NCBI GenBank assembly: GCA_964017235.1
Contig: OZ024931.1
Span: forward strand, 124,073,530-124,137,529
Direction: 5' to 3'
DNA: 64,000 nt
From: Sabellastarte sp. h YS-2021
Taxonomy: Eukaryota > Annelida > Polychaeta > Sabellida > Sabellidae
Shown here piece by piece: positions 30,501 through 63,500 of the stretch. Below the pieces are notes generated by a model. It was not told the origin of the DNA. It did not search any database and worked only from the letters and a program-made list of their open reading frames with translations. Made by a program: the position numbers and the translations under genes. Every line of letters begins with the position of its first letter. Within the stretch, counting starts at the first letter, position 1.

Positions 30501-33500
30501 GGATTTTGTGTTTACTTCAACGTAGAGTAAAGTGTGAAATTCATGACACTCCCATTTGATATTCATCTGCATGAAGGAAGATAAATGGCCTAGTATAGCA
30601 ACAAAATCCCACAATGGATAAAAGTTTTTTAATAATTCAGAAAAAGAGGGGTTTCCTCCGTAGTGGTTTTCACCCATTGTGGCAACTTTCTCATTTACAC
30701 ACATCTTACCACTACAGGTTGGCACTGCACTCTCCAGTGTTCCATTAGCCAGACATTTAAGACTGATGCTGTTGTCACGATCATCATCCCCATCATCAAA
30801 CTCATAGCCTGGATCGCAACTGAAGTTCAGTGTGGCCCCTTCTTTTTCAAAAGTCATACTAGTCGGTCCATTGGTAATATTTATCATGTAACAGGTGTCA
30901 TGTGCTGCAAATAATATTAATAATAACAATAATCACTGACTTAGCTTCTCATCACATCAAGGATGATTTCAAGGAACAGATAAATTAAAAATAAATACAG
31001 CAAACATTTATTAGGAACTTTTCAGCAAAAATTCCAAGTAGGCGGGAGATGCAAACTAACAATAAATTCACAGGTGGAGACATGAAACATGACATTTAGT
31101 TATTCAGGCTAATTTTTTTCAAATTATTTTGATTAAATGGAAAAGTGGGATAAAAATAACAACTTTACCAGCTCAAATCCAATACCGTTCACCAGTGGTT
31201 TAATTATTAGTTATAGAACAATTTAAATGGTACTTAATTGATATAGGTGCTCTTGGACACTAGGGAAGACTGAAATAGGTGGTCATCAGATGGTTATCTG
31301 TAGGGGAGAGTTGCTGAGGTTGTGGAAAGCTGAGAAAGAGTGCATAAATCTTGAATTTGCAATTTTAGTTATAGATTGGAAATGGATGAAATTCGAAACC
31401 CCACACAATGTGCTGGCTTGATAAAAGTAATGAGCTGACTAGCTGTATTATTTTGGCTTCAGAATACTAAAGACACAGGTTATAGTTGGTTACAGTAAAA
31501 GTAAGGCTGTACACAACAGTTGAAAAAGCTAAAAGTTACCATAGAGTGTTGTAAGTTGAAAGTAGGGTTAGATTTTGGGCCAGTCACATACACATGCCAA
31601 ATTTGAATTGAAACCATTTTTGAGAAACTGTCTGGAAATGAAAACAACTTAATTTCAATATAATTGTGTTTATAACTAGACTTTAGTGTCACCTTAAAGT
31701 AAAGCACATCTATGTGACCGGTCACATCCAGATACCAAATATAAATTTAATCTGTGAAGTGATTTTTGTGATACTGTCTGTAAATAAAGTGTGATGATTC
31801 CACAGATGAAGTAGATGACATTGGCCTTAGCTATCCCTATGTGCCCCCCAGCATAGAGGTTGGTGACACAAAAATGGAAAACAATGTACTTTTATGTTTG
31901 ACCAAAATCAGCCATGTTGAGGACTTTGGCATTCCATAGCTAACCTTGAAAAAAGAGCCTCAGGGTCATATAGAGAGCATACATATATATTTGACATATC
32001 ATACATAAACAGACATAACCCCCTGCAGTTGGCAACCACCCACAGTTTGTCAGTATCAAAAGGCTGACCAGTTTCAAAGAAAAACTGCCTTTACAGGGCC
32101 ACCTTGTTTTTCTAAATGAGGCCAGAAGTATTCAAAGACAAGCTTTTGTGGAAAAGGACATATCCATTTGAGAGAGTGGTAACGAGAAATTCGCTCTACT
32201 CATTCTGGCAGCATAATGAAGCATAATCCAATGTATCCAGCAGATGCATCCGATGGATACAGTTACACAGTGTTACTCACGCTGACAAATTTCACTGTCA
32301 TTGTAGAGATTTTGGACACATTTGTATTCTCCCTGAAAATATTTGACAACTGCACTTGGACACTGATAGGTTGAAAAGGCTTCAGGGGAAATAGTGCAAG
32401 TGGCATTTCCATCACACATTGATTTTATGTCTGTATTTGAAGCACCATGTACACATTCATCATTCCTGTCAAGTATACAGATATATTAATCTATATAAAA
32501 TTGTAAGAATTCTACAGGGGCTACCATAGCTCCATGAATTCAGAAATATGATTATGCACCTTTTGCACCTTAGAATATGCTAATGATGAGACTGAATCAT
32601 AGAAAAACGTGATTAGATTACAATGATGATATGTGGTAAAAGAGCAAACACAAAGCACAGGTCCCTCCAAAGCAACACATAAATGTATCAATGGTATACT
32701 CTTATTTTTCCATTGGAGAGCTTTACTATAAACCATTCTTGAATCTATACATGCCATTTCGTCCGTAGATGTAGTTACAAGCTCATATACCTTCTCTACT
32801 GTGATATCTTTTTATGTGACTATCTTTCTGTTAAATAATTTGGCTTGTTCCAAATTTGAAAAAAGTAGGGTAATTAATATCCCTGTGTATATAATTCAAA
32901 AACTTTCACAATAAATAAATACAGATGATATTTATCAAGTGTTGGATTCTGAATGTCAGAAGTTGTTAACTTGGCATTCTGTTGTCAATAAAATAAAATG
33001 TAAATATGTCCAAATATGGTATAAGACGGATCCATTATCTTTATCCCCTTACCCTAGGCGTGTGAATTTCATGTAGCTGCAAGTGGCAGGCAGTTGACCC
33101 TACCAGTTAAAGCTGCTTGCTCTATGACTGACAATATTTTGAAGGTAACATTTAACCCAAATCAGACTTTTATAAATGTGAATGTATAAGTATTTACTCA
33201 GGAAAAATGAGCAAAAGATAATATTTTGTGATAAATGTAAAACAGCTGGATATACGTTATAGATGCTCCACATTCAAATGTTGTATCCCATCCATAATTG
33301 GCCCAAATGACAAATATTTCAAACCCAGGACTGCATGTGATTGTGGTGGAAGTATTGGCTAGCTCCGAGAAACAGTCTATTCCACAACGGAAATAATTGT
33401 CATCTGAAACAAAGTAAAAAAATGCATTACTTAACCATAGTTAACTTAAACTTACCAGTGCTCATAGACCAAACTATTACACTTCCCATTTATGTTATTA

Positions 33501-36500
33501 TGTCTCTCTGTAATTCAACATTTGGGCTTCTGAAAGTAATTTGGCAAAGGGATTAAATTAGAAATGCATGAGATGTACAAATTAAAACTGTTTGGGATCT
33601 CCATTACAACCATTTTAATTTTATGATCAGCTTTTATGATGCTGCTAATCAGCTGTCAGATGTCATAAGCCACACACATGTGTACATAAACTAAGAGTGA
33701 GTTAAAAATGGTGGCTTCATATTCAGGGCGTCAAGTTACAAGTGGGTCTCAGAAAATAGGAAAATAGGAATTTCGGGAGTCAAAAAATAGGAATAGAATA
33801 GGAATATTACTGAAAAAATATAGTGAAAATAGGAATCTTTTTTAACAAGATAGTCTCCTAACACCCCTATATCCATCATGATGCACCACATTTCCCTTTA
33901 TTTTGCACTTATCTTAGAACAATGGAAAAAATATAGTCAAAATAATACACGTGTATCTCAAGTAAGCATCATACTTATTGAATTACATCCAAAAAGCTCA
34001 TAAATACACATTCTATAGAACTACATACGTACATGTAACTCAGTTCAAAACTAGACCAAGGACCCACAGATGCAAGATGTATCCACCGGAAAAGGCCAAC
34101 TAACATAGTTTAGAAGAAAAACTGCATTTTTCAATAATAAGTTGAAAGCACTTTTAAGTTTGGCTACCCTCATTTGATCTTGAAGCAGGGGCCCAAGGTC
34201 AAATGTGACCACATCGGAAGACTCACAGCCCATGATTTCCTATAGGTTGGTTTACCATCCCAAACCTCTAGGGCCAATAATAAGCAAATTATAAGCACTT
34301 TTAAGTTTGCCTAACCTTGTTTGACCTTGAAGAGGCAGCCCAAAGTCAAATCCGACCACAGCAGAAGATTCGCAGCCCATGATTTCCTATAGGTTGGTTT
34401 GACATTCCAAACCTCTAGGACCAATAATAAGGGAGATATAAGCACTTTTCATGACTGAAAAGAAACGCCCGTGATGGCCATCATTTTTCAAAATGAGGAA
34501 AAAAATATTTTTAATCAAGATTTTGTAATGATGAACATATCCAGCGAATTTGAGATTTCTACCTAGAATTCCCTTTGTTCTAGAGGCCTGGAGGGCCAAC
34601 AAAACTCCTTGCTGAAAGTCGAAAAACGCCCGTGGCAGCCATCTTGTTCTTCAAAATGAGGCCAAAAATATATTCCCAGCCAAGATTTTATGGTTATGAA
34701 TATAACCTGAAAATTTAAGAAATCTACCTACAATACCCTGGCCTCTAGAGGGGTAACAAGAAAATCTCTACACACTGCTCTCCGGTGGATACAATCATAA
34801 CTAGATTGATGCCAACATATCCCCAGACAGGTCATTTCTCATGCCAAAGGCATTCAGTGGGTATTTTTGCAGCACTCATTTTGTGAAATTCACAATTATA
34901 ATAAACCATTTTTCATTTTTCAATGATGCTGTAAAATTTATACTTCATTATGATTTGAGAAAATTAGTCATTTTCCATGTGATCAACAACATTTAGTGAC
35001 TTAAAATACATTATCATCACCAAAAATAGGAAAAAATAGGAATTTTCCTGGAAAATAGGAATAAATAGGAATTTGTTAAAAATAGGAAATAATAGGAAAA
35101 AATAGGAACTTGATGCCCTGCATATTGCTGGCATATCATTTCAGCAATGGTAGATATTGGGAAACAAAACTGTGAAGGTTGGTAAAAAGTCAGGAAAATA
35201 TCAAGTATGTTTGACTATTGTTGGGAAAATTCTGTGACTTTGCTTTTTGACCCCTGAGATCTCCAACCTGACTTGTGGCCAAAGGGTAGAGGTTGGAACT
35301 CACACCGGACCTATTAATATAAACAATATGTCCAATCTATATTAAAATCATATAAGTCAGGGGGTTATTGGTCAATGCTTTTTATAAAAATGATGAAATG
35401 GAGTTTCTACATGCCTGTCACCTCCTGGCTGTCAGTTTAATTGCCAAAAGTTGGTAGGGTCTGGTATTTGAATCTGTTACCTCCTATCCACAATCCATCT
35501 AGCCATATTGAAACTGTATTATAGTCATATAGTTTGGCATCAACAGTCCTGGGGTCGATTTCACAAAAGGACTTAGCCCAGACTTAGACTTAAATTGAAG
35601 ACTTTTGTCTTAAAATGAGGCTAAGTCTGTGATCTTAGACTTGGAGGATTTCACAGAGCTGCTAAGTCTAGGCTTTGGCTAAGTCTACCCAAGAGTAGGC
35701 TTAACTTTTGTAAACAAAGGCTTAAATATGGCCGCCATATATTTTTCTCACTTCAAAATTTGAAATGCTTGAAAATAAAGAATAAATATATAGAACACCT
35801 CCCTAAATTATTCTTTGGATACGTCTGTGTGATTATAAGGTTTCCCATTTAAAAATACAGCATTTTTTCAAAGATAAAATGAGCTAAACAAGGGATATAT
35901 GGAATCATAGACAAATCGGCCCTTTGCCAAATCGCCCCCCGTCAAATCGGCCCCCAAAATAAAATTACCTGGTCAAATCGGCCCCCTGGAAAATAATTTA
36001 TGGTCAAATCGGCCCCCCAGATATAGATAGATAAATGTACATAAGATTTATGTAATTTTTTTTTCACAATAACCCCCAGACAGTTAGGTTTATCAGTGAG
36101 TTTTATGTATCTCTTCAGTTTACTCTGACTTTCTCATTATTTATATTCAAAATCTTCACAGCGATTGGTATTATTTTATTTTCCACCCAATAGTTATTGT
36201 ATTACTATCATTTTAAAAGTCACAATAATAGATAAAGTATAATTTGTTTAAAATATAAAATAAAAATAATAATTTGTATTAAATTGTGGAGATGTGAACT
36301 TTGGTTCCAGATTAATCATGTAATTCAAAGGGATAAATGCACATTGTTCTCCTTGATGCCCACAAGGAGGGGATATCATATAATCCTCTGCATCAAAGGG
36401 AACAATCAGCTTTTAATGTCTAATACTATTTGTTTGTTTAACATTTTAGCTAGTAATCCCTATATTAAACAAATACTAAAGATCACTAAAGTTATAATCC

Positions 36501-39500
36501 CATCAACAGAAGCTGTGCAGTCAATGTAATTGCACTTTTAATAATTTTCACATAAAGAGGTTTTATTCCACATAGTTGACAAGGAATTGACTGAAGTATC
36601 CTGACATCATTCATATGTGTTAATTACACTTAGTCAAACAACATATAAGCAATTGTCTCTTTTATCATAACAATAGATTGATTACAGCATCCAATTATCT
36701 TTGATGTGTGTTTATCACACTTAGCCAAAATTCTCACCATAAAACATAATTATACAGAATTATCCCCCCTTTAGTCAACATTAACATGGACTAGATTTTA
36801 ATACAACACCATTTCAATTAAGGCACAAAGTTTCTGCTGAATAGGATCCCTTATTTCTCTGTTTTAATAATCCTGAAGAAATATCTTTATAAAACCAGTC
36901 GAATGCTCTCTGCAGGTCTACAAATAAGTTTTAATAACAAAAGTTTTCAACTGGGGGCCGATTTGTCCAGTGGCAAATTTTTATGGGGCCGATTTGTCCA
37001 GGCCTGACTTTTTTAGGGGGCCGATTTGCCGAGGGCCGATTTGGCAAAGGGCCGATTCGTCCAGCTCCCGATATATGTTACCTCTAAAATATTTTGAGTA
37101 GAAATAAAGGGTCACATGACACAGAAAACCACTGTGGTTATATGACAAGCTTGGACTTCGCTAAGCCACCCTTCGTGAAATCCATTTAAGTCCAGGACTT
37201 GGCAAAGACAAATGACTCAGATTTAAGTCCCTGACTTAGCCTAAGTCTGAGACCCTTTGTGAAACCGGCCCCTGGGGTCTCAACAGTTTTTTTTTGCCCA
37301 ACAGTCCTTCAATATGGAATCAGTACACGTGAAAGCATAGGTTTGAGATTAAGATTATGTCTAGAACTATGTCATCAATTATAAAACCAATTTATATTAA
37401 ACTTTTTTATTCCACCTATAAATGTATGCTTTGAACTTTGAACAAAACACTGAGCATCAACAAAATATATTTTCTATAAAAAATTGTTAATATTAAATCT
37501 GGACCATATGGTTAGAACTATCTGTGTAATGAATGCCATCAGTCTGAGACACTTGGATCCTTTAGGGCAGAATAATTTGCAGTGAGTAAAATAAGGCTCC
37601 CCCAACAGCGCAGTTACAACAAATACTTAGTGGAAATCTTACCACAGAAATCCCAGCAGGCAATAGGATGTCAAAAAGAAATCAAAAAGACACTGGGTAT
37701 GACATCCAAAACTCATGCTTATTTGAAATTCGAAATGACATCATATGTTAAATGTCAAATAGATCTTTAGTAGCCTAGTCTATTTGACATCTCCAAAAGC
37801 CATAAAAATGACATCTAGTAGCCGATTATAAATTTGATATCAGCATAAGACATCAATATGATCACCCAATTTGGACTGATTTCATATCTATGTGACATCA
37901 GAAACTGACATCAATTTGATGTACTGATTTAAAAATCTGATTGACATCATTTTGCAAGTGCTTTTTAGAAATACAGTTAAAAATATTTTTGGTTTCAAAG
38001 TTAATACTGTGTTACATTGTTTAAACTCCCAACATACAACTGCCATTTATGCACACTTACCTGACACAGCTTTAAGTCATTTCCATGTACTATACAGATT
38101 ATTCCAAGGGAGAAAATAATGAATGTCATCTGGGAACAAGTTGGGAAAATTTATACATAAATTTATAAATTGATACAAATTATGGGTACAAACGTTTGAA
38201 TATTAGAAGCACTTTTTCTAAACTTTTTTTTCTTTATTTGTTCAATCTTTGGCTTGGTTGCAAACACTAAAGAATACATTTGTTTACAAGTCAACATATT
38301 TATTGAAGGTTTTTGCTGTCACACAGCATTTTAGTTACAGTTTTAAACATAATTGTTTTGTCTATACCAAAAATTAATTATTTCTTTCAAAGCAACATCA
38401 CACAGACTATAGGACAAGTTGGTTAGTAGGTTCAGCATCTAATCACAGGTTGTCACCTCTATCTGGGTTTGCCCCTACTCATGCGAAAGAGCTGAGGGCC
38501 TGTCCTAATATGACCCTGGCTGTTTTCAGGATGTAAAACCCAACTTTGACTTAACACAGACTAGATAAATTATTCCGACTTAGGCATGATTTAGACATCC
38601 AGACGATGTATTGGTAATATTCATAAAAAATGAAATCATAATTTTATAGAATACCAATGTCAATCTGATCTCAAATTATATGATGATACTCTACTTTAAA
38701 TGTCTTAACAAAGTGACATCACATTAATATCATTAAGATGTCAGAAACAATGCCCGTATATTATTCGAACATCATATTTTCATCATTTGACATGACTACA
38801 CAGAGTCATGTTGGGATGGTGTCAATTTTATGTCATTGAATAGGATAATACGATCATGTCATGTCTGGTAATCATTTTGACATCTAGTTGATATTATAGG
38901 TATGTCATTGACATAAAGTCATGTCATGTCACATAAACTGGATGTCAGATTTGTGTCAGATGACGTGACCACCTAATATCATGTCCGAGTGATAGTTAGT
39001 TGATGTCATATACTAACATGACCAAAACATGATGTCAAGAATTGGACCTGTGCCTGCTGGGATGGATGAAAAGGTAGTTAAGGCTGACTGATATTTGTTG
39101 GAATAATTGCACAATATTGCATTAACCATTCCATATTTAGTGTGTGCACGTAATATAATTTCTGTAGAAAATTTTATTTTGAAAAGTAGATTTTGAAGGC
39201 GCTTGCTTATATTTCTTGCTAACAGGAAACAGGTTGTCTTATGTTAATGAAATTAGCAACTGTAGAAAATTTTATTTGGAAAAGTAGATTTTGAAGGCAC
39301 TTGCTTATATTTCTTGCCAACAGGAAACAGGTAGTCTTGTGTTAATAAAATTGGCAAGTCTAACAAGGCCAGGAGATAGTGAAGCAACCATCTGAATTTG
39401 GATAATATGACTTTCTTGTATAAAGACCAATAACCAAGTGATTTCATTTGCTGTTTAATTTGATTGACACCTTGAAAAAGGCTCATATGTACTCACATGC

Positions 39501-42500: not shown

Positions 42501-45500
42501 AGGCATTTGCAGCAAGGACTGCAACATTAGGAGTAAGATGCTTTCTAATTCTACGGAGGTCGCGCATCTGAAGAAAGCACGCTTTGCAAGTCCTCTTGAT
42601 ATGCTCGGAGAATGAAAAATCTGCATCAAACCACACACCTAGATTTCTGACAGAATCAACCGGATGAAGAAGGCTACCAAGAATGCTAACAGGAAAATGA
42701 GAGGAAATCATGAGTGTTAGTGAACAGAGCCTTAGTATTGCTATCAATCACTTAGAAGTGGACTCAAACTCTGTAGTGAATACATTGCCAGTGGGACACC
42801 TAATCCCATTACCAAGATCATCAGTGAGACACAGGGGCCACGGTGGCAGAGTGGTAACACTCTCGCCTCCCACCTCTGAGGCCGGGGTTCGATCCCCGTC
42901 ATGGCCTTACGTGGGAAAGCTGATAGTTGCTTGCCGTTGGTTGGCAGTTTACAGTACAGAACCCTAGCGAACTGTATGTACTGGTTTCCTCTGCCCTTCC
43001 AACTACCCGTCGTGATATGACCTGTACAGTGTTGAAAGCGACGTAAAAAACCCCAAATAAATAAATAAAATCAGTGAGACATTCTCACTCCTCCAGGAAA
43101 TCTCTAACAAATAAGTCACTGCCACCTATACCGACACCGAAGACAAGACAGAAAAGGAGAACTGAATCTCCTTTTGACCAAGAACATCCTGACAGAGATA
43201 AATACATGAGTGCCAGCAAACCATTCTCCCTGGTGGCCAAGGGACTAAAGAAACTGACCATACCTCAATTCAATCAGCTGGAATTTAAGGAATGGGCAGT
43301 CTCCTAGTCTATGCAATTTAAGGTGCATACAACCACTCCTAAGCATGAGGAACTTAAAGTGAACCCAGTAAACATGGTAAACGTTTATAAACGTTTAGTA
43401 AACCTATAAACGTTTTTAAAACCAAATATAAAACCTAAATATTGACAATTATTCAATATTATGGGCTTATAAATGTTTCAGCAACATTAGGTTGGTTTAT
43501 AAACGTTTAATAAACGTTTTTAAATGTTTACAAAGAGTGAAGAATATCTTAACCTCGTTTTCATTTTGGATGATGATATCAGCACAGCCATTTTGAGAGA
43601 AACTGGAGAAATATTTCTGTTACTACATCTTGCTGTATCACTGTTGTTTGAAGCCATCATTAAATTATAAGTGGATATATAAAAGTACATTATATCATAG
43701 AATGCACTGTATAAAGTTAAATTAATGAAAACAGGGAAATTATTCATAAAAAATGAAGTTTGTTTACATTCTCCCTTGAATCATGCTGGATACTTGAACG
43801 TTTATAAACATTTATGTATAAATGTTTATAAATGTTTATGCTTAAACGTTGATAGGCGAACGTTTAGGAGCCCATCATTTTAAACCTAAATAAACTGTTC
43901 ATAGTTAGGTTTATAAATGTTTATAAAGGTTTGTAATGTTTGTAATGTTTGATATGCTTAAATGTTTATAGGCGAACGTTTAGGAGCCCATCATTTTAAA
44001 CCTAAATAAACTGTTCATAGTTAGGTTTATAAATGTTTATAAACGTTTGTAATGTTTACTGGGAAGTGGACCATAGAAATTACAGTCAAATGCAAAAAAA
44101 ACCTAACCCACCTTCTTGTGGAAGATCCCAACACTAGATACTTCCTTGTGAAGTCAGAGATCCAGACCATCATGGCTGAACTAGAAACAATTCTAGTACT
44201 GTCTTAGTTCATAGAGATAAAGGAATCTCTCAGCAGTAGATATAAACAAGCCACCTCAACTTTTCCAAAAAGGAAGCTCAAACCCTTGAACTTGAGGACT
44301 GGAAAAAGAGGCGCCCTGCTCCAATCAAAAGGATGACCCCTAAATAAGGGACCTCCAACTGAACTTGAAACTGGTTAAATAAACTTAACCTATATGAAGC
44401 TTTGTTTATCAGAATTAGAGTTTTTCCACACAGTTTTACATAGAAAAGAACACCAAGTCTTTTCAATAAAATAACCAATAGCAATAAAATAAAAAAAACA
44501 TTCGTTTATTCTTGTTTATTGATTACCTAGTTAAAAGGGGAAGGGGGGGGAGCTAGCGGTCCCATTTATTGAACCTGGGGCCAAACAAAAACACAAACTT
44601 TCACATATTAATGATGGAAAGTGTTAAATATACTGACATCTTGAACCAAATGAAGAAGAAGGCTAACATAGCCCGCCCTGGCATTTTGGTCAAAGGCAAA
44701 ACCATGTAAAGTCTCAAAAGAACACACTGTATTAAATTTATCTCATCTCATGTCCTAGCATCTGACAAAGTTTCCATCCAGCAGAGACACCAAACAAATC
44801 GCAGAATGGGGTGGATTTAAAAAAAAAATCCACCGCAGACCATGTCTTGGGTATCATTTAACAAATGACAACGATCTAAAGGATACAGAAACAGAGTTGA
44901 TTGAATTCATGGTCAACAACATGGCAGAAAATGAGAATACTTACAGGGAAACCCACAAACAGCTTGTTGACAAAAGCAGTGGAAGCTCCAAGTAATTCCT
45001 TGGAGGTTTTCCCAAGCTCTTTAGACAAGGGCTACCTACCCCACCCCCCCACCCACCACAAAAAAACCCCTAACTTATGAAAGCATCAACTCCAGGGCTT
45101 AAAAGAATTAGGCAACAACATGTCACTCAAAATACATTAAAAAGGGCATACCATGTAGATCAGTTTACAGTTCTGTAAATCACCCCACCAGTGGGAACAA
45201 TAAACTAGAGGATGAGCATATCAAGAAATATGTCCCTACTATACCATCCTACATATGAGACACTCAAGACTTCATGCTCAAAATATAGGAGCTGGAACCG
45301 ATCCCTCACTCTTATATCTGTTCCTAGCCACCATATTGGCATTCAAAACGTTTATATTCCGATTATACTGATTGAACATATGCAGATTTGTGTGATTCTA
45401 AATCCAATTGCAAAGTTGCTTGGGAAGCTATCGTATAGATTGTAAATCAGAAAGTAATTGGGAAGCTATCAGATAGCAAAGGCATATCTTTCCGCGGCGA

Positions 45501-48500
45501 TACAATGCCCTCTCTTTACCTTTCAATGGGGGACTACAGGTTAACTATTAACTGGGGAATGGAACAGCTCTCTAAAAACTTGCATAGGCCCTTTACCTAA
45601 TTGTAAGCTGTAACTAACCAATAATATTTTGTTTTTAACACCTGTATTTGCTCTTTTAAGCAAAAACCTACAGTTCAATCACTTTCTTTTTGCAACACCA
45701 CAAATTCGACCTGTATATTTAATAGTATTATGCTAAAAACTAGTGAATATATATTATGACCTATAAGATAAGATAAGATAAGATATTTAAAATTTTAAGT
45801 GCAACAACACCAATGTGTTATACTGCACTATAAAAACATTAACTACTATAAATATATTAACTAATATTCACAAACATATATATATACAAGCAATCAAAAA
45901 CTGGCAAAAATACCAAACAAAAACACAAGACTATACGAAATGACTAGAATAAACAATGTAAAAAATCAATCAACAATACATAAACAACAAACAAACTAAA
46001 GACTAGATATTGCAGAATAAATTAACACGAAGGACAAAACACAAAATAAATTAATTAAAACTTTTTAAACAGGCCACATTCTTTTAAATAATTAATGATA
46101 TTAAAAACATTTTCACAAAATAATTTTTGCATTGTATTAATATTTCTATAATATTTAATTCTGGTGTCACGTAGGTCGATACAGTCTAATAATATATGCT
46201 TGACTGTATCGGGACAATGACATGGAATGCACCAGGGCATATCTTCACCTTTCAACAGATAACTATGGGTGAAATAAGTGTGTCCTATACGGGCTCGAGT
46301 TATGACTATTTCCTCCCTACGAGATAAACCTGTCCAAACATAAAAATCTCCTACTGTAGGGTTTATTTGGAATAGTTTATTATCAGGACACGCATTCCAT
46401 TGAGCTTGCCACTTTTGTTTAAAAACACTATTTACATTCACTCTCAAGTCTGTATAGGGGACTTTCAAGTCTAAAACATTAAAATTCAAGGCCTGTTTGG
46501 CAAGCTCATCTGCTTTTTCATTGCCCTTTATGCCTACGTGACTAGGAACCCAAGCTAAAACCACTTTCTTATTCACTGACAAACAATCATTAAAAAGTTT
46601 TAAAATATCTTGAATAAAAGGATGATCACAGTTGTTGCTATCAAGAGCTTGAAGACTAGATAAAGAGTCACTAAATATGATAAAATGATCCCAATCACAA
46701 TTTTTTACAATATTAAAAGCCATTTTCAGAGCCTGTAATTCAGCTGTGAATATACTAGCATTGCCAGGAAGCCTGACTTGGGCACTGAGGTTATTAGATG
46801 TAGCAGCTGCAGCAACCCTATTTTCTGCCTTCGATCCATCAGTATATATAGCCCTATGGTCAGGATAACAACCTTTCAACTCAGCAAATAGACTTTGAAA
46901 AAGACAATCATCACCAAGGTGTTTCTTTTGATGGGTTAGATACAAATCTATGTGAGGCTTCTGTATAGTCCAGGGTGGGTCATCTGGCAATGACACAGTC
47001 TGAATTATATCCAGCTGAGGACAGACCACAGACAAATCTTCCTCTACACGATGCCCAAAAGATCTTATTGCAGATGGTTTCTTATCATACAGATCATAAT
47101 ACTGGGGGTTAAAAACAACATCATAAGCTGGATTGTCAGGATTACTTCTCAATTTCAAAGCATATTGAACACATAACTTATCAAACCTTAAATACAAGGG
47201 TGGTTCATTTGCCTCTACATACAAGCTTTGCATTGGAGAGGTCCTGAAGGCTCCCAGGCATGTTCTTAGGCCCTGGTTTTGAATGGGTTCCAATTTCTTA
47301 AGATAAGACTTACGAGCGGAACTAAAAACAGCACAACCATATTCCAATCTGGAACGAACAAATGAACGATAAAGTCTCATTAAAACACTTCTATCTGCTC
47401 CCCAATCCATTTTGGCAACTACTTTCAGTAGATTCATAGCTTTTTCACATTTCTGGCGAACATAATCTATATGTGCCTTAAAATTAAGTTTTCTGTCAAA
47501 GATAACACCAAGGAACTTAGTTTGTGAAACAACAGGGATTTGTGAATTATATATTGTCAATGTTGGGTCTGGATGAAGTTTTCTTTTATTACAGAAATGC
47601 ATGCAAACAGTTTTGGTTTTAGAAAATCTAAAACCATTTTCATCAGCCCATTTCTCTACTTTATTCAAACACAATTGAAGTTGCCTTTCTATTGAAGCCA
47701 TATTTCTAGAAGAACAAGTGATTGAGAAATCATCAACAAAAAGAGACTTTTCAAAGCTAGCTGGAATCACATCAGCAATACTGTTAATCTTTAAAATAAA
47801 TAATGTAACAGAGAGGATGCTGCCCTGGGGAACACCCATCTCTTGCCCATGTATATCTGAATAAACAGATCCTAAACGAACTCTAAAAACTCTGTTTGAT
47901 AAAAAATTCTGAATAAACATGGGCATTCGCCCCCTTAGGCCTACTTTATGTAGATCTCTTATAACGCCATACTTCCATACTGTATCGTAGGCTTTTTCTA
48001 AATCAAAAAATACAGAGACTACATGGTTGCCTTTTAAAAAGGAATCTCTAATAAAAGATTCAAGTCTTATTAATTGGTCTGTTGTAGTTCGACCTTTTCT
48101 AAAACCACTTTGATATTTTGTTAAAATATTATTTTTCTCAAGGAACCAAACTAATCTAGTATTAATCATTCTTTCCATGGTTTTGCATAAACAGCTCGTC
48201 AGGGAAATGGGGCGATAATTGGACGGGTTTTTTGGGTCTTTGCCTGGTTTAGGAATAGGTAATACAGTGGCCTCTTTCCAGCATTCAGGAATTTCACCTG
48301 AAGCCCATATATCATTAAATATATCAAGTAACACCATAAGTGAGTCTCTTGGTAAATGTTTTAGCAGCTGATAATGGATCTCATCTGGACCAGTGGCTGT
48401 GTCATGAGACTTATTCATAGCATCACATAGTTCTCTAATGGTAAATGGTACATTGTAGTTTTCAGAGTTGTCTGTGTCAAAATCCAAGTGTTCTTTTTCA

Positions 48501-51500
48501 GATTTCTCTTTATATTTTTGAAACTCTGTACGGTAATTGTTGCTGCTAGAATTCTTGCGGATTTCTTCGGCCAACCTATTTGCTATATCAACTCTTTCTG
48601 TTATTTTTGTCCCATCATTATTTTCCAGATGGTGTATTGTGGTGTTACTTTGTTTGCCACTTATTTTCCTAATCATTTCCCATACCTTCTTTGCTGGTGT
48701 CTTTACATTTAGTTTTGATACATATTCATGCCACGATTTCCTTTTACTTTCTTTAATTATTTTACGAGCATTAGCTCGACAGGTTTTATATTCATTTATG
48801 TTATCCGATGTAGGATTTATACGGCATTTATCCATTGCATTTTGACGAGCCTTAACAGCTTTTTTGCATTCACTGTTGAACCATGGTTTGTAGCTACCAG
48901 TGGACTGTCCAGTTGACTTTGGCACACATTTTGTTGCTATGTCATTTAACTTATTTAAAAATGCAGGAAATTTTTCTGTAGAGTCAGTAAAATTATGTCT
49001 ATTAATATCCAGAGAACACTGAAGTTTGAATTTTGGCCAATCAGCCTTTTTAAGATTCCAACGAGGAACATTGTCCTTAGGCATACTCTTAACTATATCA
49101 ATTAAAATAGGAAAATGGTCACTACCACACTGATCTGAATGGACCTGCCATGTAAAATCAAGAAAAACAGATGCAGAACATAAAGACAAATCTATTGAGG
49201 TGAATGAACCTGATGCAGGATGAAAGTAGGTAGGTGACTTATCATTAAGTAAACAAATATCAGAGGATTCAAGGAGATGTTCCACCTTATAGCCTAAACT
49301 ATTAGACGAGGAACAACCCCATAAATCACTATGTGCATTAAAATCTCCAATAAATAGAAAAGGTGCAGGTAACTGGTTGACTAGATTATCAATATCACTT
49401 TGTGCAACATTAAAACGTGGTGGAATATATACATTACATACAGTTATAGTTTTATGTAGAGATACTTTTACAGCAACTGCCTGCAGTTCTGTATCTAACT
49501 CAAGTACCTCATGGGGTATACCTTTCTTAACAAAAATAGAGCAGCCACCAGTGGCTCTCCCATCTACTTCAGACATACAAGTTTTAAAATAATGATCAAA
49601 TCCTCTAATATATACATTATCTGAATCTTTAAAATGAGTTTCCTGCAATGCTAAAATGTAGGGTCTAAAATTGGAAATTAAATTTTTAATTTCTTCAAAA
49701 TTTGGCCTAAAGCCACGACAGTTCCACTGTATTATACTTTTATTTTTGTTTGGTTCCATTATTTAGACTTTTATTACCACTCCGCCCTTGTGAACTTGTG
49801 ATTGGGGATTCTTCGACACTCATGTCACTGTCACTATCACTTAAAACATCATATTTATTGTGTTGTTTAATAGGGTCATTAGATCCCTTATGTTGTTTAG
49901 TCAAATATACTTTGCTCTGACTTATTTTCAGCTTAATGGGGTCATTTTGAGATGCACTTGTCTGACTCGATGCACTGGTTTTATTCACTTTATTTATCTG
50001 TTTCTCAACTGCGCACTTTTTTGGTTGTTTTGTGCCTTCTGGCCAAGTCATTTCTGTTTGTGTTTCTACGTTCACTGTTTTCACCACAGGTTTAGTTGCT
50101 GCAGCTGCTTGGGCATAGGTTGATTTCACAGAATTAAATATATCCATTTGTTTCTTGGCTTCTGTATATGAAATCCCTCTTTCTGCCTTAATCCTTTGAA
50201 TTTCCTTTTCTTCTTTCCATTTTGGACATTCTTTATCATTAGATGCATGCTTTCCTTGGCAATTTACACATTTTGCTTCATTCTTACATTCTTGAGAGTC
50301 TGTATGATCTTCATGCCCACATTTAGTGCAAACTTCATTCTTTCTACAGTTGAATTTAGTGTGACCAAACTTTTGACACTTGTAGCATCTCACAGGATTC
50401 GGGATAAATTGTGACACAGCCACTCTGTAGTAACCCACCCTGATGTATTTTGGTAAGGTCTGGCTCTGAAAGGTCAATATAAATGTCCCTGTTGGTTTCC
50501 TTTGTCCATCTCTGAATACCGATATCCTGTCCAGTTTTATGACCCCTTCATCTTTAAGTCCTTCTAATATTTCCTCATCAGAACATTCTTTTATGTCTGG
50601 GCATCTAATGACCCCTTTCTTTGTGTTCAGGCTGTAGTGTGGTGATACAGTGATGGGGATAACATTGTCCATAGTCAAGTGCAGTTTGGTCGTTTTCAGT
50701 AGTTTGCTGCTTTGAGCTTCCTTGTCAACTTCAACTAAAATGTCTCCATTTCTTAATTTTCTTATATTGAAAGGATCAGATCCTAAAACAGCAACAATGG
50801 CCTTGTTTACAGCAAATGGCGACAGCTTAGTCAAGGGTCTCTCATTGTCTGTGCCTTTTATCAACAAAAAACGTGGCCATGAACAAATTGGTGCAGAATC
50901 CAAGCTCGTAGTCAAGATATCAATTCTAGTTCGTTTCCTATCGGTCATTTGAGAGTGTTGAATAGCCATAGTAAAATAATAATTATTCATTGCCAATGCT
51001 CTCCACCCACCCTTCGAGCCCAACAAGGGGATATCATAATCGTGTGGAGCTGAGCCCTGCACACTGATATCAGAGATACATTAACAATATACTCAAAGAC
51101 CACAAAAGTGAACCTTGATTGACCTGTTAAGCAGCCGCCTTCTAGATACTCCAAACAAAAGCACAAACCAAACACCAGCATAATACAACAATCAAGTACA
51201 ACAGTATAAACCATTAGAAACAACAAGCCATCACTAATTTGGAGCACTAGGGCTTGGCACTACCAGCCGATTGATTAAGCCAGGCCATCTTAACCTTCCG
51301 ACTAAGTGAAATTGAGGCCAAAGCTGTGTATTGCCTCCTCAATGCCGCAACAAAGAATTGGCTCAACAGCCAGGACCCTCTCTTCCACTAACACGGATCG
51401 CAACCCACGGCAAACAGGCTGCCCCCAATTAGTCGCCTCTTACGACACGCAGGAGGATACGTTGGGCCTATTCTACTTCCCCGGACCCACAGGGGGATAT

Positions 51501-54500: not shown

Positions 54501-57500
54501 TACTTAAACTGTTTGTGCTAGAATGTTGTCAAAACCTTTGATAGAAAACAGTCCAAAAATGTTTTAAAGTAATAGGTATGAAAGCCAGTTGCTATGGAAT
54601 GTGTGTCAAACGTTTTCAGAGCAAACATTCACAAAACATTGCCAACAAATGTTATTTAAACATATTATGCATACTGTTTATCACACATTTGATGATGACA
54701 GTTTGAAAAACATTTCCAGTATAACGTTTATTTCTTGAGCTATATATTAAATGTTTAAGTACGTTTCCAGTCTTCCATATTTTTGGTATATCAAAGTTAC
54801 ATGGATGTTTCACCTGGAATGTTTCAATGTCATCCAGAGGATGCTAAAGTCACCTGACAGAGGCTATTGCAAGCTGTCTGTGAGTACTTGCAATGCCCTG
54901 TATCTCCTTTGTTCTTAGTCCTAGATATTAAGGATGTGCAGACAAATTATGGCAGATACCATGTGGCCTGAATGTTTTGTTTGGTTCACATTTGACCTCA
55001 GACACTCTCCAGTCCTATTTTGGTCCTTTTATGGTCCTTGATACTTATATATCATCTATAGTTCCGTTATTATTGCTTTCAGTGGTTTGTGATGTGAAAA
55101 CTTATACAAAACCACATTGCATTTGGTGGGGTCACGTTAGATTTTGGTCCCTCCCTTCAAACGTAGTCCTTTATATAACAGTTTTTGGTTTGGGCTTTCC
55201 TTTTTAACATTTACTACCGTCTTCAGTTTTATATAACTACAGAAAAGTTACTTATGGTAACCTTCTATGGTGTCCGTGAATTTGACTGGCTAATCATAGA
55301 AATATTTCATGGGTAAAATCAGCATAACCTGTGGTTTCCCATTATCGTGCATATTGGCCTCTGGACAATAATCCATTTTTGTCTTGAAAAAGTAGACAAC
55401 AAATGCAGTGTAATATTTATAAAATTTAAAAACTTGTGTTCGCCTTCGGGGTTTACAACCTCAAATCTGGTAAAATTCTGCGTATACCATGGTTTTATCT
55501 TGGTTACTCCCACAATGTTATTAGCTGGGATACATGGTGTAGTACATGTTATGTACTAATATGACTAGTTATAGCTGAATGTTACTCAAATGTTTGAATA
55601 ATTAACTCCAAACATGTTAATTGATATATCTAAATCTATCATTGGTTGTGTTGCCCAAACTGTGATCCTTGTCTCTGTGTGCCTTGTGTTTCCTTTGTTA
55701 TTGGCCTAGAGGTAAGTCGATTTATCAAGTTACAAAGTCCACACATCAAGCTAGCTAAGCTGATTTATTGAATTTTTCATATTGGCCCTTCTACTCTTTC
55801 CTACAAAGCTGCCCACAACGAATGATTAAAAAGTGACAGGAAATTGTATTTTCTATCAAGTACATGTTAATGCATGTTTAAATTTAAATTCTGTGAAAAA
55901 GAATGAAAGCTATACCATGCCTAGACTTAAATGATTCTTTATGTTGAGAACATATACCTCAAGATCAACTATTTGTGTTCATATGCAATAACAGTCACCT
56001 ACCTGCCACAGAACTATGTATATTTTGAATAGAAACACTGAAAAGATAAAAACCTCATTTTTCGACTTTTAGGTGGCCTTAACATCGGCGGCAGTGGCAT
56101 TGGCACCTCCAAATTTAATCACTTGTTACTTACGCAAATTAGCATTATCTGAAAATTTCAGCAAAATTCATCTGTAAGTTAGATGAGAAATACCCCATTT
56201 TTGTGAGTTTAAGGTGACCTTAACATGTTAAATGTTGACAATTAAATGTCAGAAGATAACAGAAATGTTCTCCCAGGCTGACCTGTGTAATATACACATG
56301 TTTACTAGAGAAATTATAAAAAGACAAACAAATTATGTGACGTGAAGGTGGCCATAACTTGATAAAAATGGAACATTTAAGGTCACCATAAAGTCAAATT
56401 ACATATTTCTGATACTGTGGCATTTACACCAGGTATGATACACCAAAATGATTTCGAGTTATGGGACAAAACCTCATTATTCGATTTTAAGGTGTCTCTA
56501 ACACTGGTGGTGGTGGCATTGACAACTACATAATGTAATCACTTCTTACTTAAGCTATATGGACACTATCTGAAAATTTGTAGAAAATCCATTCGTAACT
56601 TTTTGAGTTATGCTGTTGACTAACAGACAGACAGACATACAGACAGACAGACAGACCCCAATGTTTTACATAACCTCTGCTGGTGGAGGTAATAATGTCA
56701 GTGTAACTGGAAAAACACCACAACTCCACCCATTCCACAGAAACCCTTGTTGAAATCACAATGCCCCCATGTATAGTGGCCACAACAAAATAGCATTTGG
56801 GGACCTTAAAGGGTCAAGTTATGGTTGATAATAACACTTGTATTAATGAAATTTCAAACATCAATTATATTTATAAAATTACTAAAATTTCTTGACGGGA
56901 GTAGGGATTCTCTCTTATGCCCCTGTTCCACCAAAGGACTAAGGCCCGATCCTGTCGGCGACCCTTAATCGTGGACAGTCGGTGAAGAAAATGGTAAAAT
57001 GGGCAGGAATACTGGATCGGTATCAAAGCCTGGGATTAAGTACAGATCGGCCTCAGGAATCCTGAGGAGGCCCCAGGCGGCCCCAGACAGTCCCCGACTG
57101 GTCTGGGACTAAGAACCGATTTAGCCAGTTTTCTGCTCGGTTTGAACCACAATCCTGTCATACACATACCGACTGGGTCCCAGGACGCCTCAGGCCTCCT
57201 GGGACTAAGCCCCGACTAACCCCCGATTAAGTCCCGGCGTCCTCAGGTGTCCTCAGGCCTCCTCAGTCTTCCCCAGACCAATGTGGCCGATTCTTGTTTT
57301 GCAGAAAAGCTGGATTTTCTGGGTATATATATATAAATTCCGTGATCTAATTATCATTACTTTTATGGGAACACAGCAGGATGCCACCTTTTAATGGAAG
57401 ACAGCTTCAGCAACAACTTAGGGCTTTTTTAGTTTTTATTCAGTTACAAATAATGATGTATTTGCTATTTCTACGTCGACCACAGCAACCACCACAAGCA

Positions 57501-60500
57501 GCACCTCCACCACCAGCCATACAGAGACCTAGAAGAAGGCACAACATGTGGGTCAGGCCATGGCTACTGCAGAGAGAGGAGAGGGGGCCTACCACAACAT
57601 TATGGCTGAACTGTATGCCACAGACATTCCAGGATTCACCAACTACATGAGGATGACCCCAGAATTCTTTGAAATGATAAAGACCAGACTGGAACCACAT
57701 CTAGCCAGGCAGGCCACCAACTACAGAGCTCCAATCAGTGTTGGGGAAAGGTTAGCCCTCACCATCAGATATCTGGCCACTGGAGAGTCTTACACATCAT
57801 TATCAGTTCAGGGTTGGAAGATCCACCATTTCCAAGTTTCTACCAGAGGTCTGCAGGGCCATCTAGGATGAGTTCACCAGAGAGTACTTCAGATGTCCTA
57901 CTACTCCAGATGAGTGGAAAGAACTGGAAAGGGAATTCAGGATCAGGTGGAATGTTCCACATGCCCTGGGTGCCCTGGATGGCAAGCATGTGGCCCTGAA
58001 GAAACCCAAGAACTCTTTTCCATAGTAATGTTGGCCTTGGTAGATGGGCAGTACAAATTCAGATGGGTGGATGTTGGTACAGCTGGATCTTGCTCAGATG
58101 CCCAGATATTTAATGCCTGTCAGCTGAAGAGGAGGATTGAGGATGGCAGGATAGGCTTTCCTGACCCAGCTCCTATAACATAGGGTGGTAGAGATGTCCC
58201 CTACTTCATTTTGGCAGATGATGCCTTTGCCCTGAAGACCTGGCTGATGAAACCCTATGGCAGACGGATGTTAACCAGAGAGGAAAGGATTGCCAACTAC
58301 AGAATATCAAGGGCCAGGAGAGTTGTTGAGAATGCTTTTGGCATCCTGGTCTCAAGATTCAGAGTGATGTTGACTACTATTGAATTACCCCCAGAAACAG
58401 TCAGGGATGTGGTCATGACCTGTGTGGTTCTGCACAACATACTGAGAAGCCAGTATCAAGGTCAACATGGTGGTCAAGAGCCTGGAGATGATGAAGATGA
58501 TGATGTGCCTGGTGATTGTCGACTGATTGGTGGTGCTGCTGGTGGTGGTCCAGACAGAAACCCTGCTAGAGAAGCCAAAAGACAGAGGGATTACCTCAAG
58601 GACTACTTCAATAATGAGGGAGCAGTGGCCTGGCAAGATGGCAGAATATAACTGCTGCTGCAGTAACCAGTCCTTTTCAGGACTAATAACCAGTCCTTTT
58701 CAGGACTAACGAACAGTCCTTTTCAGGACTACCAAATATTCCAAAAACAATTAATCAGCTATGCTTGTTCAAAATAACCCAAACATTACCAAACATAAGT
58801 CACGCCACCAACAAACAGACAAACCCCATGCCTAACATATTTCACCCACCCAACAAACAGACAAACCCCATGGCCAACATAATTCACCCACCCAACAAAC
58901 AGACAGAAATAAATGCCAGTCATCCAACTAACAAACAGACAAACCCAGTGCTACACATAATTATCAAAAGAAACACACAAAACCAAACATAAGTTCCTAA
59001 ATGGAATAAATATTGCATATATTTTGAAAGCTACATCCTAATTTTACTTACATTTGGTTTTTTTTTTGAAAAATATTTGAAACAGAAATGTTTTCCTGGA
59101 AATCTTAAAATTAAAATCTTTTGCTCCACTTCACAAATATTTAGGAAATATAACCACCAAACTGATTTTCTTTACAATGATGGGGGTTATGTTTGCAAAA
59201 TAGTTTGTCAGTTCTTTGGTTTGGGTTCTGTTTGCTATTGGGTTTGTCTGTTTCTTGGTTGGTGGTTATGTTTGGTATTTGGTTGTGTGTTTGTGGGTTG
59301 GTGGTTAGGTTTGGTATTTGGTTTGTGTGTTGGTGGTTCGGTTTGGTATTTGGTTTGTGTGTTGTTTAGTTGGGGGTTAGGTTTGGTATTGGGTTTGTGT
59401 GTTTGTGGGTTGGTAAGTATGTTATAATGCCTTTTAACTCTAGGGATGATGGTGTTGGACTTTTTTATTAAAGATTTTAACCAATCCCATGGATTTTAAG
59501 CTAAAATGGGCTGATTATTGGCCATATTGGGAGTTTATTTTAATATTTTTTTCTATGTGGCCTTTTTTGGTTTTGTGTGGTACCATGGGTTATTTGTTTC
59601 ATGTTTGGGGTGGTGTAGGTGTTGGACTTTTTTTGTGATAAGTATTTGTACTGAACTGTTATGTTTTGGAAGGGAATTGGAATAACTTGCAGCTAAATAA
59701 TTGTTTTTGGAATATTTGGGTGGCCCTGAAAAGGGCCTGGCAGGTCAAAGACCCACCCTGACTGGATGGCTACTGAGGAGGCTGCTGCTGTTAAGGCGGT
59801 GCTGTAGTGGTGATAGTGAAGAGTTGCGGCTGCTGCTGCTGTTGAGGCTGCTCAATGATCTGTGTAGATGTCAGATCTGGTAGCTGGCTTAGTATTCCAC
59901 TTAAGTTGTGTCTACTGCCCTTGTCCTGTACTGTTAGAACTGATGGAGGGTTTCCAAAGCCAAGGGGGCTTTGTGTCTAGTAGACGTAACTGCTGCTAGC
60001 TGCTGCTTGGGTGAAAGTAGACGCCTGTTGAGTGGTTGTTGGCAGTATCCCGACCCTCTGGGACTCCGTGGTAATAGTGGCTGATCTTCTGGCTAGTGGT
60101 TGACGTCTACGGTTGCACTTAATGCTTTCAATATCTCTAAAAATTCTGCCCTTAAGGTCCTCAAATTCCTCTTGGGTCATCTTTTCAGCCTCTGATGCCA
60201 CGTAGTCAAAGAAGGGCTGCCTGTCTGACTTCTGCTGCAGGAAACCTGAGATCAATGTCCTCATCTGGTCAAAGTGCTCAAGTATCTTGGAGTCTGTTGA
60301 AACTGGTGTAGATGTGAATATAGGTTGACTCCTACTCTCTCTGAGGACACTGGACTCGAGGTGTTCTGTATCAGTAGTAGACCCACGAGATTCGTCCTGC
60401 TTGCTGGTATTTGGACTGGCCTCGAACCCTGAACTTCTGCTGGCCCCCTTTCGTCTGATATGGGTCTTAAGGAAACCCATCTGTTGGTAGACCAAGGACT

Positions 60501-63500
60501 ATCTCTTGGTCATCTCCCTTGGGGCTTGGCCAGATTGTAGTTTTGACAGCTTGCCATAACGTGTTCACTAGGATTCGAACCATCTTCTGACATCAAAGGG
60601 CTGGAACTTCAGTTCTGCAGAGATTTCTGCCCAGAGAGCCTCCTTCTTCTGTCTGTCGTGGAAACGTGCATGCTCCTTGTCGTAGAGCTCTGGATGCTCC
60701 TTCACAAACTCCACAATTGCAGTTTCTTGGCTGTCAGTGAAAGTGGAACAGACCCTGGCTCTCTTGGCTGCCGAGTGACTCTCTAAATCCTCCTCACACC
60801 TCTCTTCTTCTTCGTAAGCTTCCTCAGTAAGTTCCAATCGCTCCTCAGTCTCTTGTGTACCCTCCTCTGTACCCTTCTCCGTCCTTTCCTCAATCCTTTC
60901 ATCCACCTCTCCACTTTCCTTCTCCCTCTCCTCTTCCCTCTCATCCATCTTCTTCTTTCCTCTCTTCCTTCCTTTCTCTTTCCTCATAACTCCAGTCAAT
61001 AGCAATAAAAAAAGTAAAAAAGTAAAATGTGTCTCCTAACTGTAAAATTTGCCTTAAGCTCAAGTATTATATGATATTTAAAAAACTAAAAACACCTACA
61101 AAACAGTGACACACGTCTCTCAGTAGCCAAACAGTCAGTAACAACGAGAATGTGTGCGCGGTCGCTTATATAGTCCCAGACCCCCTCATTGCCTCGTTTT
61201 AATTTCCGACGCGCGGAAAACAGTCGGCTCTTAATCGGTTCTTAGTCCCAGGCCTCCTGGGGCGTCCTCAGACTGTCGCGGACTAAATTTGTGTTGTCCC
61301 AGGCGGCCTGAGGACGCCAGCTTGGATCGGTTAGGGTCGGCTTCTCTTAGTCGGGGCTTAGTCCCAGACCCAGATTTCTTAGTCCCAGGACACCTGAGAC
61401 GGTCTGAGGCTTCCCGGGTCTAATGAAACCGATTCCCTTTCACACACATGAAACTTCAAAGATCTGTTATGAGTCGGGGACTGCCAAACATGCTTCCTGG
61501 GACTAAGGTACGGAGGTCTGGGACTAAGGGTCACAGGATGCCTGGGACAACATAGGACTGTGTAAATTTGGGTCTGAGGAGGCCTGAGGAAGCCTGGGAC
61601 TGGACATTTTGTTGTCGGCGGGAAATGAGAATCGGTTTGAGTCGTGAGAAATATCAAACATGTTTGATTTCTCTCACAGCCAAAACCGAAAACTACTGAC
61701 CCTTACAGGACGTCTGGGACTAAGCAAATATTTGAAATCGACTCCCAAAAACCCTTAATTGGGAAGCTTAGTTGTGTGGTGGGACACGATGGAGGAACTA
61801 AAAGTAAAGACAAGTATCAACCAAATAATTTGATACTGGGAAAAGGGCAAAATTCTCAGGATATGTTTGATATTTTAGAGAATTTGCACAATGTTTCAAA
61901 TGCATTAAACTTGCTGGAGTACTGATTTTTGGAAAAACCGAGTGCCATGAATGCCACAAATCAATAAAGGTTTGAAACAGGTGGAAAAAATAGAATTTCA
62001 CACCTTTCGGCAAAATGATTTAAGCCCCAGTCACACCACAAATGATACATCCTGCTGTTAGAGGTTTTACTCAGTGGTGGAAATGCTCCCAAGGATGGCT
62101 CATATCTCCAGGATTTGGTGTATCCAGCACAGGCAGCATAATCCATGGTTATATGCGCTGCTCGAAACACACCATTCCTTTAACTGCTGTCTGAGGTTCC
62201 TATGCGAAGTTGTAACACATTGGCCAAACGTCCATTTACTTCTACTCGGCTCATGCTGCCGTATTACACAGCAAGATGACTTAGTCACAACCTTACATAC
62301 ACCATGGACTACACCTTCAGATACCATAGCAAGAAATTCATCTGCACATGCTTGCATTCCTCTGCGCATGCTCACGGTGACGTGGTCAGAGGAGGATAAT
62401 TTAAACATTTAAAACTTTTGAAGAATGTGCAAGGTAATTGATGTTTCACCACTACGTCATAAGGTCGCATGCAAAACCTTGGACAGTAGCTGAAGGCAAG
62501 GGGCTTTTCACCCAAAGCCAAAACCGCAGGACGTACCGCTTGTACTTTGACTGGGGTTTTAGACAACAAATGATCGCCTGCCTGTTCAAACTAACCTACC
62601 CCTAGCCTTGCGTAAGGCTGACAAAATCTGTGTAATTAAGGGAAAATATACAGAACAAAAATGTTTAGTTTGCAAAATGTGCTCTTACATTTACATGTAC
62701 TGAATGTTACACAAGCATATGGCTTATACAGAGGTGCTCAGCGTATATCTCCCAACATGTATTGGTGCTTTATGAATACCAAATATCTGTGTACATGTAT
62801 GAAAACATATTATACAAATTTGAGCCTTAAGGAAGGTTAACCCCTTTCTTTTTCCCCCGATCGGACTCAAACATGGAACTGGACTGTTTCTGGTAACTGG
62901 GTCCATTTTGGACATCAGGGGATGTCTACAACAATTCGAAACTTTAAAATACTTCATTGTAACTGTAGAAAAATTTTGTCGTCTCATAAGCTTACTTGGA
63001 TCAAAAGTTTGATTTGAATAATTCCTTGAATCTACATTAGATCTTTTATTTTCAACAATAAGTATTCCACATTATATAGGAACACACTGGTATAAAATTT
63101 GATCTAATAGTATGCCCTATCTATTTTTAAAACAAAATACCATGAAGTCACTGTGAAGCTTATATTCTTACAACATTGGTATCAAGTAGGAATCTACACT
63201 CCATCCGACTTACTCAAACAAGATAGGAATTTCATGGAGTAAGGCCAATCTAAAGCAGTCAATTGTACAAAGTCAAACCATTTTTGGGAGGAATACTTTA
63301 GAATTTAAAAGGTTTCTTGATCAAATTCAAGTTTTTATGAGTTTCCATGTAAAAGATAAATCCTTCCACTACATTTGAAGGTATTGCTTAATCATTCCAA
63401 AGGAAGTCTCTCATTTAGAAAACATTAAATCAAGAATGTGATCATCATGAAGTGAGGAAGTAATGGAATGCATCTCTAAATACTCACTGTAGTAAAAGTG

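Follow-up and report, generated by a model that had tools for sequence, protein, structure and literature searches.

Host histone 3′-end processing signals on both genes of a PIF/Harbinger transposon clade in Sabellastarte

Replication-dependent histone mRNAs are described, in the available part of PMC10388802, as the one kind of metazoan mRNA known to lack poly(A). Why, then, does a DNA transposon of the annelid Sabellastarte sp. h YS-2021 carry three stem-loops of the histone type directly behind its transposase gene? The locus lies in a stretch of 64,000 nucleotides of contig OZ024931.1 (positions 124,073,530 to 124,137,529), here called the window, and all unprefixed coordinates are positions within it. 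A preliminary description of the window had left two answers side by side: that the element borrows the histone 3′-end pathway, or that a coincidental palindrome had been amplified in tandem. The observation behind it is confirmed and was understated: a clade of Harbinger elements carries complete host histone 3′-processing signals on both genes. From this it seems that the DNA-replication-linked mRNA pathway of the cell was borrowed by a jumping gene, and to the reading that both element genes would use the host histone 3′ processing pathway we assign, from the sequence evidence set out below, a probability of about 0.88.

The element and its two genes

The stem-loops belong to a PIF/Harbinger element of about 4.9 kb (56918-61787, with no strand assigned), whose boundaries come from a blastn comparison between the window element and copies fetched from this genome, and from reading the ends of those copies. 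The left terminal inverted repeat begins TGCCCCTGTTCCACCA at 56918 and is preceded by TTA (56915-56917); the pair of terminal repeats is TGCCCCTGTTCCACCA and TGTGGGTGTTCCACCA, the right end of the window copy being slightly damaged and its right flank lost. Among 16 copies compared by eye, the 3-bp flanks are identical in 10 (TTA or TAA in nine, ATA in one) and differ or are unclear in six. Terminal inverted repeats with a 3-bp TTA/TAA target duplication place the element in PIF/Harbinger.

The two genes are convergent. The transposase gene (DDE_Tnp_4; 57381-58651, plus strand) and the second gene, for a MADF/Myb-like DNA-binding protein (59770-60987, minus strand, with a lower end that is approximate and taken from copy L013), are both broken in the window copy, where they persist as pieces of open reading frame, those of the MADF gene lying at 60568-61035 and 59977-60498 on the minus strand. 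Both frames are open in three of 20 loci examined (L013, L015 and L019). In L013 neither frame contains introns, the transposase running to 443 codons (PF13359, E 2.4e-32) and the MADF protein to 488 codons (PF10545, E 2e-11), and the stop codon is separated from the stem by 17 nt in the transposase gene and by 32 nt in the MADF gene. The element is an autonomous-type PIF/Harbinger DNA transposon, of which the window copy has decayed.

The likeness to PIF/Harbinger elements with a MADF/Myb-like second gene extends to the DDE_Tnp_4 transposase, the MADF protein, the terminal inverted repeats and the 3-bp TTA/TAA duplication; the difference is that here both genes end in histone-type processing signals. 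In Harbinger, the MADF protein moves the transposase to the nucleus, according to the available part of PMC9710019. The words ‘stem-loop’ and ‘polyadenylation’ are absent from the main text, as far as available, of two Harbinger papers (PMC9179366, PMC9710019), and of the open-licence PMC papers listed on the subject, none reports by its title or the opening of its abstract a transposon that carries a histone stem-loop.

Upstream of the transposase gene lies a TATA-like box, TATATATATATAAA (57324-57337, plus strand), and a TATA-like run with small changes is found there in all 18 aligned copies, the window included. The MADF gene is preceded by TATATA (61167-61172, minus strand), a stretch covered in 17 of the 18 aligned copies and unchanged in 15 of those 17. 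TATA-like boxes are a trait of histone genes, and the TATA-like run before both genes is histone-like but not specific. The spacer between the gene ends (58761-59690) is occupied by short tandem repeats, with units of about 39-42 bp rich in CAAACAGACAAACCC and its complement, which are themselves inverted.

The remainder of the window holds a number of other features. A non-LTR retrotransposon on the minus strand (46055-51080) has two open frames: the first, of 446 aa, shows CCHC-like motifs to the eye and no Pfam match, and the second, of 1235 aa, contains endonuclease, reverse transcriptase and RNase H domains. At 43386-44057 palindromic repeats of the AACGTTTATAAAC type are densely arrayed, one unit of 116 bp having 97% matches, and at 35912-37057 CAAATCGGCCCCC repeats and inverted copies lie about 1 kb apart and resemble the ends of another mobile element. 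A series of sushi-like exons on the minus strand (8913-9206, 10611-11015, 20192-20506, 28658-28978 and 30483-30932, the Pfam check having covered 30486-30932) perhaps belongs to one host gene; those at 20192 and 28658 are closely similar by eye.

Stem-loops and the downstream element of host histone genes

Right after the transposase frame, AGTCCTTTTCAGGACT (AGTCCT-TTTC-AGGACT) occurs three times, exactly and on the plus strand, with a period of 23 bp (58669-58684, 58692-58707 and 58715-58730). The preliminary description had these three copies and their spacing right, as it did the fit of the 3′ flank ACCA in the third copy only; the transposase stop ends at 58651, so that 17 bases, rather than the 18 then given, precede the first copy. 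Within the window, four matches to AGTCCTTTTCAGGACT with up to three mismatches were counted against 0.74 expected, and four was reached in none of 100 shuffles. Copy 3 matches the Rfam model RF00032 with 30.6 bits (E 7e-6 in a search of 5.2 kb), short of the gathering score, which is 34; copy 1 reaches 16.1 bits (E 1.9), and for copy 2 no RF00032 match was listed up to E 10. Copies 1 and 2 have no downstream element of their own. The last transposase-side stem-loop, which adjoins the downstream element, is alone the likely cleavage signal, and copy 3 is accordingly the presumed processing site in the window.

The MADF gene ends in a stem-loop of different spelling, GGCCCTTTTCAGGGCC (GGCCCT-TTTC-AGGGCC; 59737-59722, minus strand), followed by ACCCA. 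Its RF00032 match (59742-59697, minus strand; 35.8 bits, E 1e-6) is the sole match at gathering level to Rfam in the whole 64-kb window; the preliminary description had missed this stronger signal. A 6-bp stem, a 4-nt loop and an SLBP-type sequence are found at both gene ends, over the gathering score on the MADF side and at 30.6-33.8 bits, under 34, on the transposase side. Separated by about 930-960 bp, the two gene ends are inverted copies of one another, but their stems, AGTCCT/AGGACT and GGCCCT/AGGGCC, show paired differences at positions 1 and 3. Tandem amplification of a chance palindrome would not account for the stem-loop at the end of the convergent gene, which is spelled differently and is followed by the same downstream element.

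The host’s own histone genes provide the comparison for that element. Of 382,297 first-look candidates in an RF00032 search of the genome, 75 were scored, and each of them exceeded the cut-off (one control genome, Lactococcus lactis, matched below it); an array on contig C4, with a repeat length of mostly 1932 bp, holds 32 of the 75 scored matches. Twenty of the 75 places were fetched: four are histone genes, 11 contain the C-terminal part of a MADF protein from Harbinger families, and five had no tblastn match and resemble other MADF-gene ends by eye. The histone genes, identified by tblastn with histone protein sequences, are H3 (L053), H4 (L065), H2A (L064) and H1 (L057, from the C4 array). 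All four have GGCTCTTTTCAGAGCC, then ACC, then a downstream element, which reads TTCCAAAAACAATTA in H1 and H3, TTTCAAAAACAATTA in H4 and TTTCAAGAACTTTTATTT in H2A; the distance from stop to stem is 33 nt in H3 and 47 nt in H4. In the H1 gene (L057 444-482, within C4:31445260-31445860), which lies in the array of 1932-bp repeats, a second hairpin, ACTTTACTTTTAAAGT, stands exactly 23 bp upstream of the histone stem-loop; this is also the spacing of the transposon’s tandem stem-loops.

After both element stems, TTCCAAAAACAATTA occupies the same position as in host H1 and H3; the downstream element begins some 9-13 nt beyond the stem. On the transposase side, the ACCA flank and downstream element (58731-58760, plus strand, with TTCCAAAAACAATTA at 58739-58753) share 20 identical bases with host H1, 17 with H3 and 12 with H4; on the MADF side, the ACCCA flank and downstream element (59692-59721, minus strand, with TTCCAAAAACAATTA at 59712-59698) share 18 with H1. 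The preliminary description had judged a downstream element not obvious. These runs, being identical with the host histone genes, show that it is present, in the host’s own spelling.

Other element families carry other histone versions. The H2A-type element CAAGAACTTTTATTT is found in one of them; the family B version reads CCAAGAACTTTTATTT, that of family C is close to it, and family B shares a run of 15 nt with H2A. In 1000 shuffles for each comparison, none reached the shared runs of either gene end of the window element with H1, H3 and H4 (12-20 nt) or the 15-nt run of family B with H2A. Comparisons across types are not significant (5-6 nt for the window element against H2A, 5 nt for family B against H1, H3 and H4), and the 8 nt shared by family C and H2A was reached by 22 of 1000 shuffles. 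Copy L011 has an H2A-type downstream element at its transposase end and one of the H1/H3/H4 type at its MADF end, a mixture that would fit separate captures.

Retention of the signal among copies and families

The exact 16-mer AGTCCTTTTCAGGACT occurs 6306 times in the 1.79-Gb genome, and not once when read backwards. One hundred listed places fall into 64 loci, with one hairpin in 33, two in 26 and three in five, at a spacing of 23 or 25 bp with one exception of 46; if the listed places are typical, there would be about 4000 loci genome-wide. A transposase or MADF protein match was obtained in 39 of the 40 loci fetched from these 64 (L010 gave none at E 1e-3), and the loci include families with little or no nucleotide similarity to that of the window (e.g. 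L011, L024, L031, L032, L034-L038, L047 and L048). The first 20 loci were fetched by the plus-strand hairpin alone, and 19 of them (all except L010) have a stem-loop at the opposite gene end too, with all six pairs in 16 of the 19. The MADF-side loop is TTTA in L009, L011, L039, L040 and L047, and the distance between the two stem-loops ranged from 678 to 1375 bp across 20 loci measured.

Between families, the stem-loop signal is the best-conserved DNA. Blastn of L011 against the window element (E 1e-10) returned only two blocks: coding sequence, at 69.7%, and 57 nt around the MADF-side stem-loop, at 89.5%. The corresponding values for L031 are 64.0% for coding sequence and 84.2% for the signal, and in L047 the coding sequence is at 68.3%, the transposase-side signal at 92.9% over 56 nt and the MADF-side end at 72.8%. 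Relatives of the transposase were sought in collections of prokaryote and viral contigs and none was found there, a result from which, given the collections searched, nothing follows on spread among animals.

A sample drawn independently of the hairpin came from a PF13359 search of the same genome, in which 150 of 10,138 first-look candidates were scored and one control genome, Bacteroides ihuae, also matched. Twelve close relatives of the window transposase were chosen by DDE score and open frame, and all 12 carry the stem-loop with an adjoining downstream element, in two to four tandem hairpins each, the last stem being fully paired in every copy. Their RF00032 scores are 30.8-33.8 bits, below the gathering score of 34, and TTCCAAAAACAATTA is exact in nine and has one change in three. 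The last loop of L094 is TTTA, and the first of the two hairpins of L095 has a GTTC loop. In 18 other DDE_Tnp_4 places, picked by hand over the higher scores, the 450 nt after the domain held no RF00032 match up to E 1, and 14 of the 18 held A(A/T)TAAA. With 12 of 12 against none of 18, the signal belongs, among the elements sampled, to one clade and not to DDE_Tnp_4 elements generally.

The preliminary description had proposed looking for covarying stem-loops in other copies. A filter that demanded four or more of the six pairs, TTTC or TTTA in the loop, a flank reading (A/G)(C/T)C and, at the position of the downstream element, CAA(A/G) passed 89 rows. Manual removal of 11 that had no downstream element reduced these to 78, of which 49 are distinct over 26 nt (four histone, 45 element); 40 loci in the set had been chosen by exact match to the plus-strand hairpin. 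Among the 49, standard pairs make up 98.3% of pair cells against 89.5% when shuffled, double-changed cells number 42 against 16, and the covariation score is 0.373 against 0.195, none of the three being reached by 500 shuffles; the test is limited by relatedness and row selection, since the choice of many stems by exact match or by the pairing filter had partly selected for good pairing. The number of pairs changed on both sides (three against 2.3, reached by 168 of 500 shuffles) and of further pair types (six against 6.4, reached by all 500) gave null results.

Taken pair by pair, 1, 3 and 4 change on both sides, 5 is invariant and 6 is broken in one of the 49. The 5′ G of pair 2 is unchanged in 48 of the 49 stem-loops, and this base, G7, is required by SLBP according to the available part of PMC10388802. 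Element stems differ from histone stems by paired changes, with the loop, the ACC flank and the G needed by SLBP nearly always kept, and the hairpin is retained in other copies and families with changes on both sides of the stem.

Processing pathway, alternatives and consequences

The elements resemble replication-dependent animal histone genes in the TTTC-loop stem-loop, the ACC flank and the host-specific downstream element, as well as in the short distance from stop to stem, the absence of introns in open copies and the TATA-like boxes. They differ in that they encode a transposase and a DNA-binding MADF protein and no histone, and in that the histone stem GGCTCT is replaced by AGTCCT or GGCCCT, some loops are TTTA, and the transposase-side stem-loop is repeated one to four times across copies. 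The retention of the hairpin and the matches of 12-20 bases between its downstream element and those of host histone genes support the first answer of the preliminary description, namely that the element borrows the histone 3′-end pathway.

Some of the machinery can be recognised in the genome. Two SLBP-domain matches, 11 kb apart on contig C6 and one of them with an in-frame stop, together cover the model and would fit two exons of one gene. The U7 snRNA model RF00066 had no match in this genome, nor in the control genomes. A U7 pattern, composed of the complement of the downstream element and an Sm site of the U7 type, gave six matches against four in the reversed control; none is U7-like, all six being flanked by what looks like repeat sequence and lacking a good 3′ hairpin.

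The evidence from poly(A) hexamers is mixed. A(A/T)TAAA follows the MADF stem-loop in all 20 loci examined and the transposase stem-loop in 12 of them, and its presence keeps polyadenylation in play. An alternative is therefore that the stem-loops bind SLBP for stability, export or translation only, and that transcripts are polyadenylated further downstream. Against this, the transposase strand is free of A(A/T)TAAA across the whole 0.8-1.4 kb between the stem-loops in the other eight loci, among them two of the three in which both frames are open. The histone downstream element is needed only for U7-dependent cleavage, and in both genes, and from family to family, it is kept together with the stem-loop, so that the alternative seems to us improbable.

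Chance is ruled out as the source of the palindrome by the shuffles, by the RF00032 match at gathering level and by the host histone downstream element. One might still suppose that the hairpins act as DNA and only mimic histone stem-loops, as palindromic sites for the element’s own proteins or as terminal inverted repeats of a nested insertion; the inverted arrangement of the two ends, roughly a kilobase apart, and the tandem duplication of the transposase-side palindrome would suit such a role. Yet conservation of the loop TTTC and the flank ACC on one side only is not what one would expect of DNA-level features, nor is a match to host histone downstream elements or a position near both stop codons in families otherwise as dissimilar as L024 and L011. 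Such a role is very improbable, and a nested MITE insertion between the genes, considered as a source of the inverted repeat, is rejected on the grounds of the asymmetry of loop and flank, the histone match and the stop-codon position. Equally hard to credit is the idea that histone 3′ ends were acquired by ancestral recombination and have since been passively inherited without function. That so few loci have both frames open would agree with it, but stem changes are compensated, the signal is conserved above coding DNA in L011 and L031, and it is present in every one of the 12 copies chosen by an open transposase frame.

The preferred reading is that both genes enter the histone 3′ processing pathway. 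Each gene ends in a 6-bp stem whose loop is TTTC or TTTA, followed by the flank ACC and by TTCCAAAAACAATTA or the H2A-type CAAGAACTTTTATTT, the transposase-side stem-loop having been duplicated in tandem. SLBP would bind the stem-loop and the U7 snRNP the downstream element, and transcripts would be cleaved after ACC(C/A)A and not polyadenylated. We infer element mRNAs that are non-polyadenylated and linked to S phase, and that may be exported, translated and destroyed like histone mRNA. With such handling, the transposase and its MADF partner would appear together and mainly in S phase, as in the early embryo or the dividing germ line. S phase is when cut-and-paste elements could gain copies, and transposing during replication would presumably be of advantage to the element.

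Taken further, this Harbinger clade would make mRNAs that are non-histone yet by design non-polyadenylated, processed by SLBP and U7; transposition would be confined to S phase, and the thousands of copies might compete with histone genes for SLBP and U7, a wider proposal towards which we lean with some reserve. A selfish element appears to have adopted the histone mRNA pathway for both of its genes. If this is true, transposition would be tied to DNA replication through an RNA signal, the altered stems and loops (AGTCCT, TTTA) would provide natural SLBP and U7 substrates for testing recognition rules, and cell-cycle control of cut-and-paste transposition would become directly testable.
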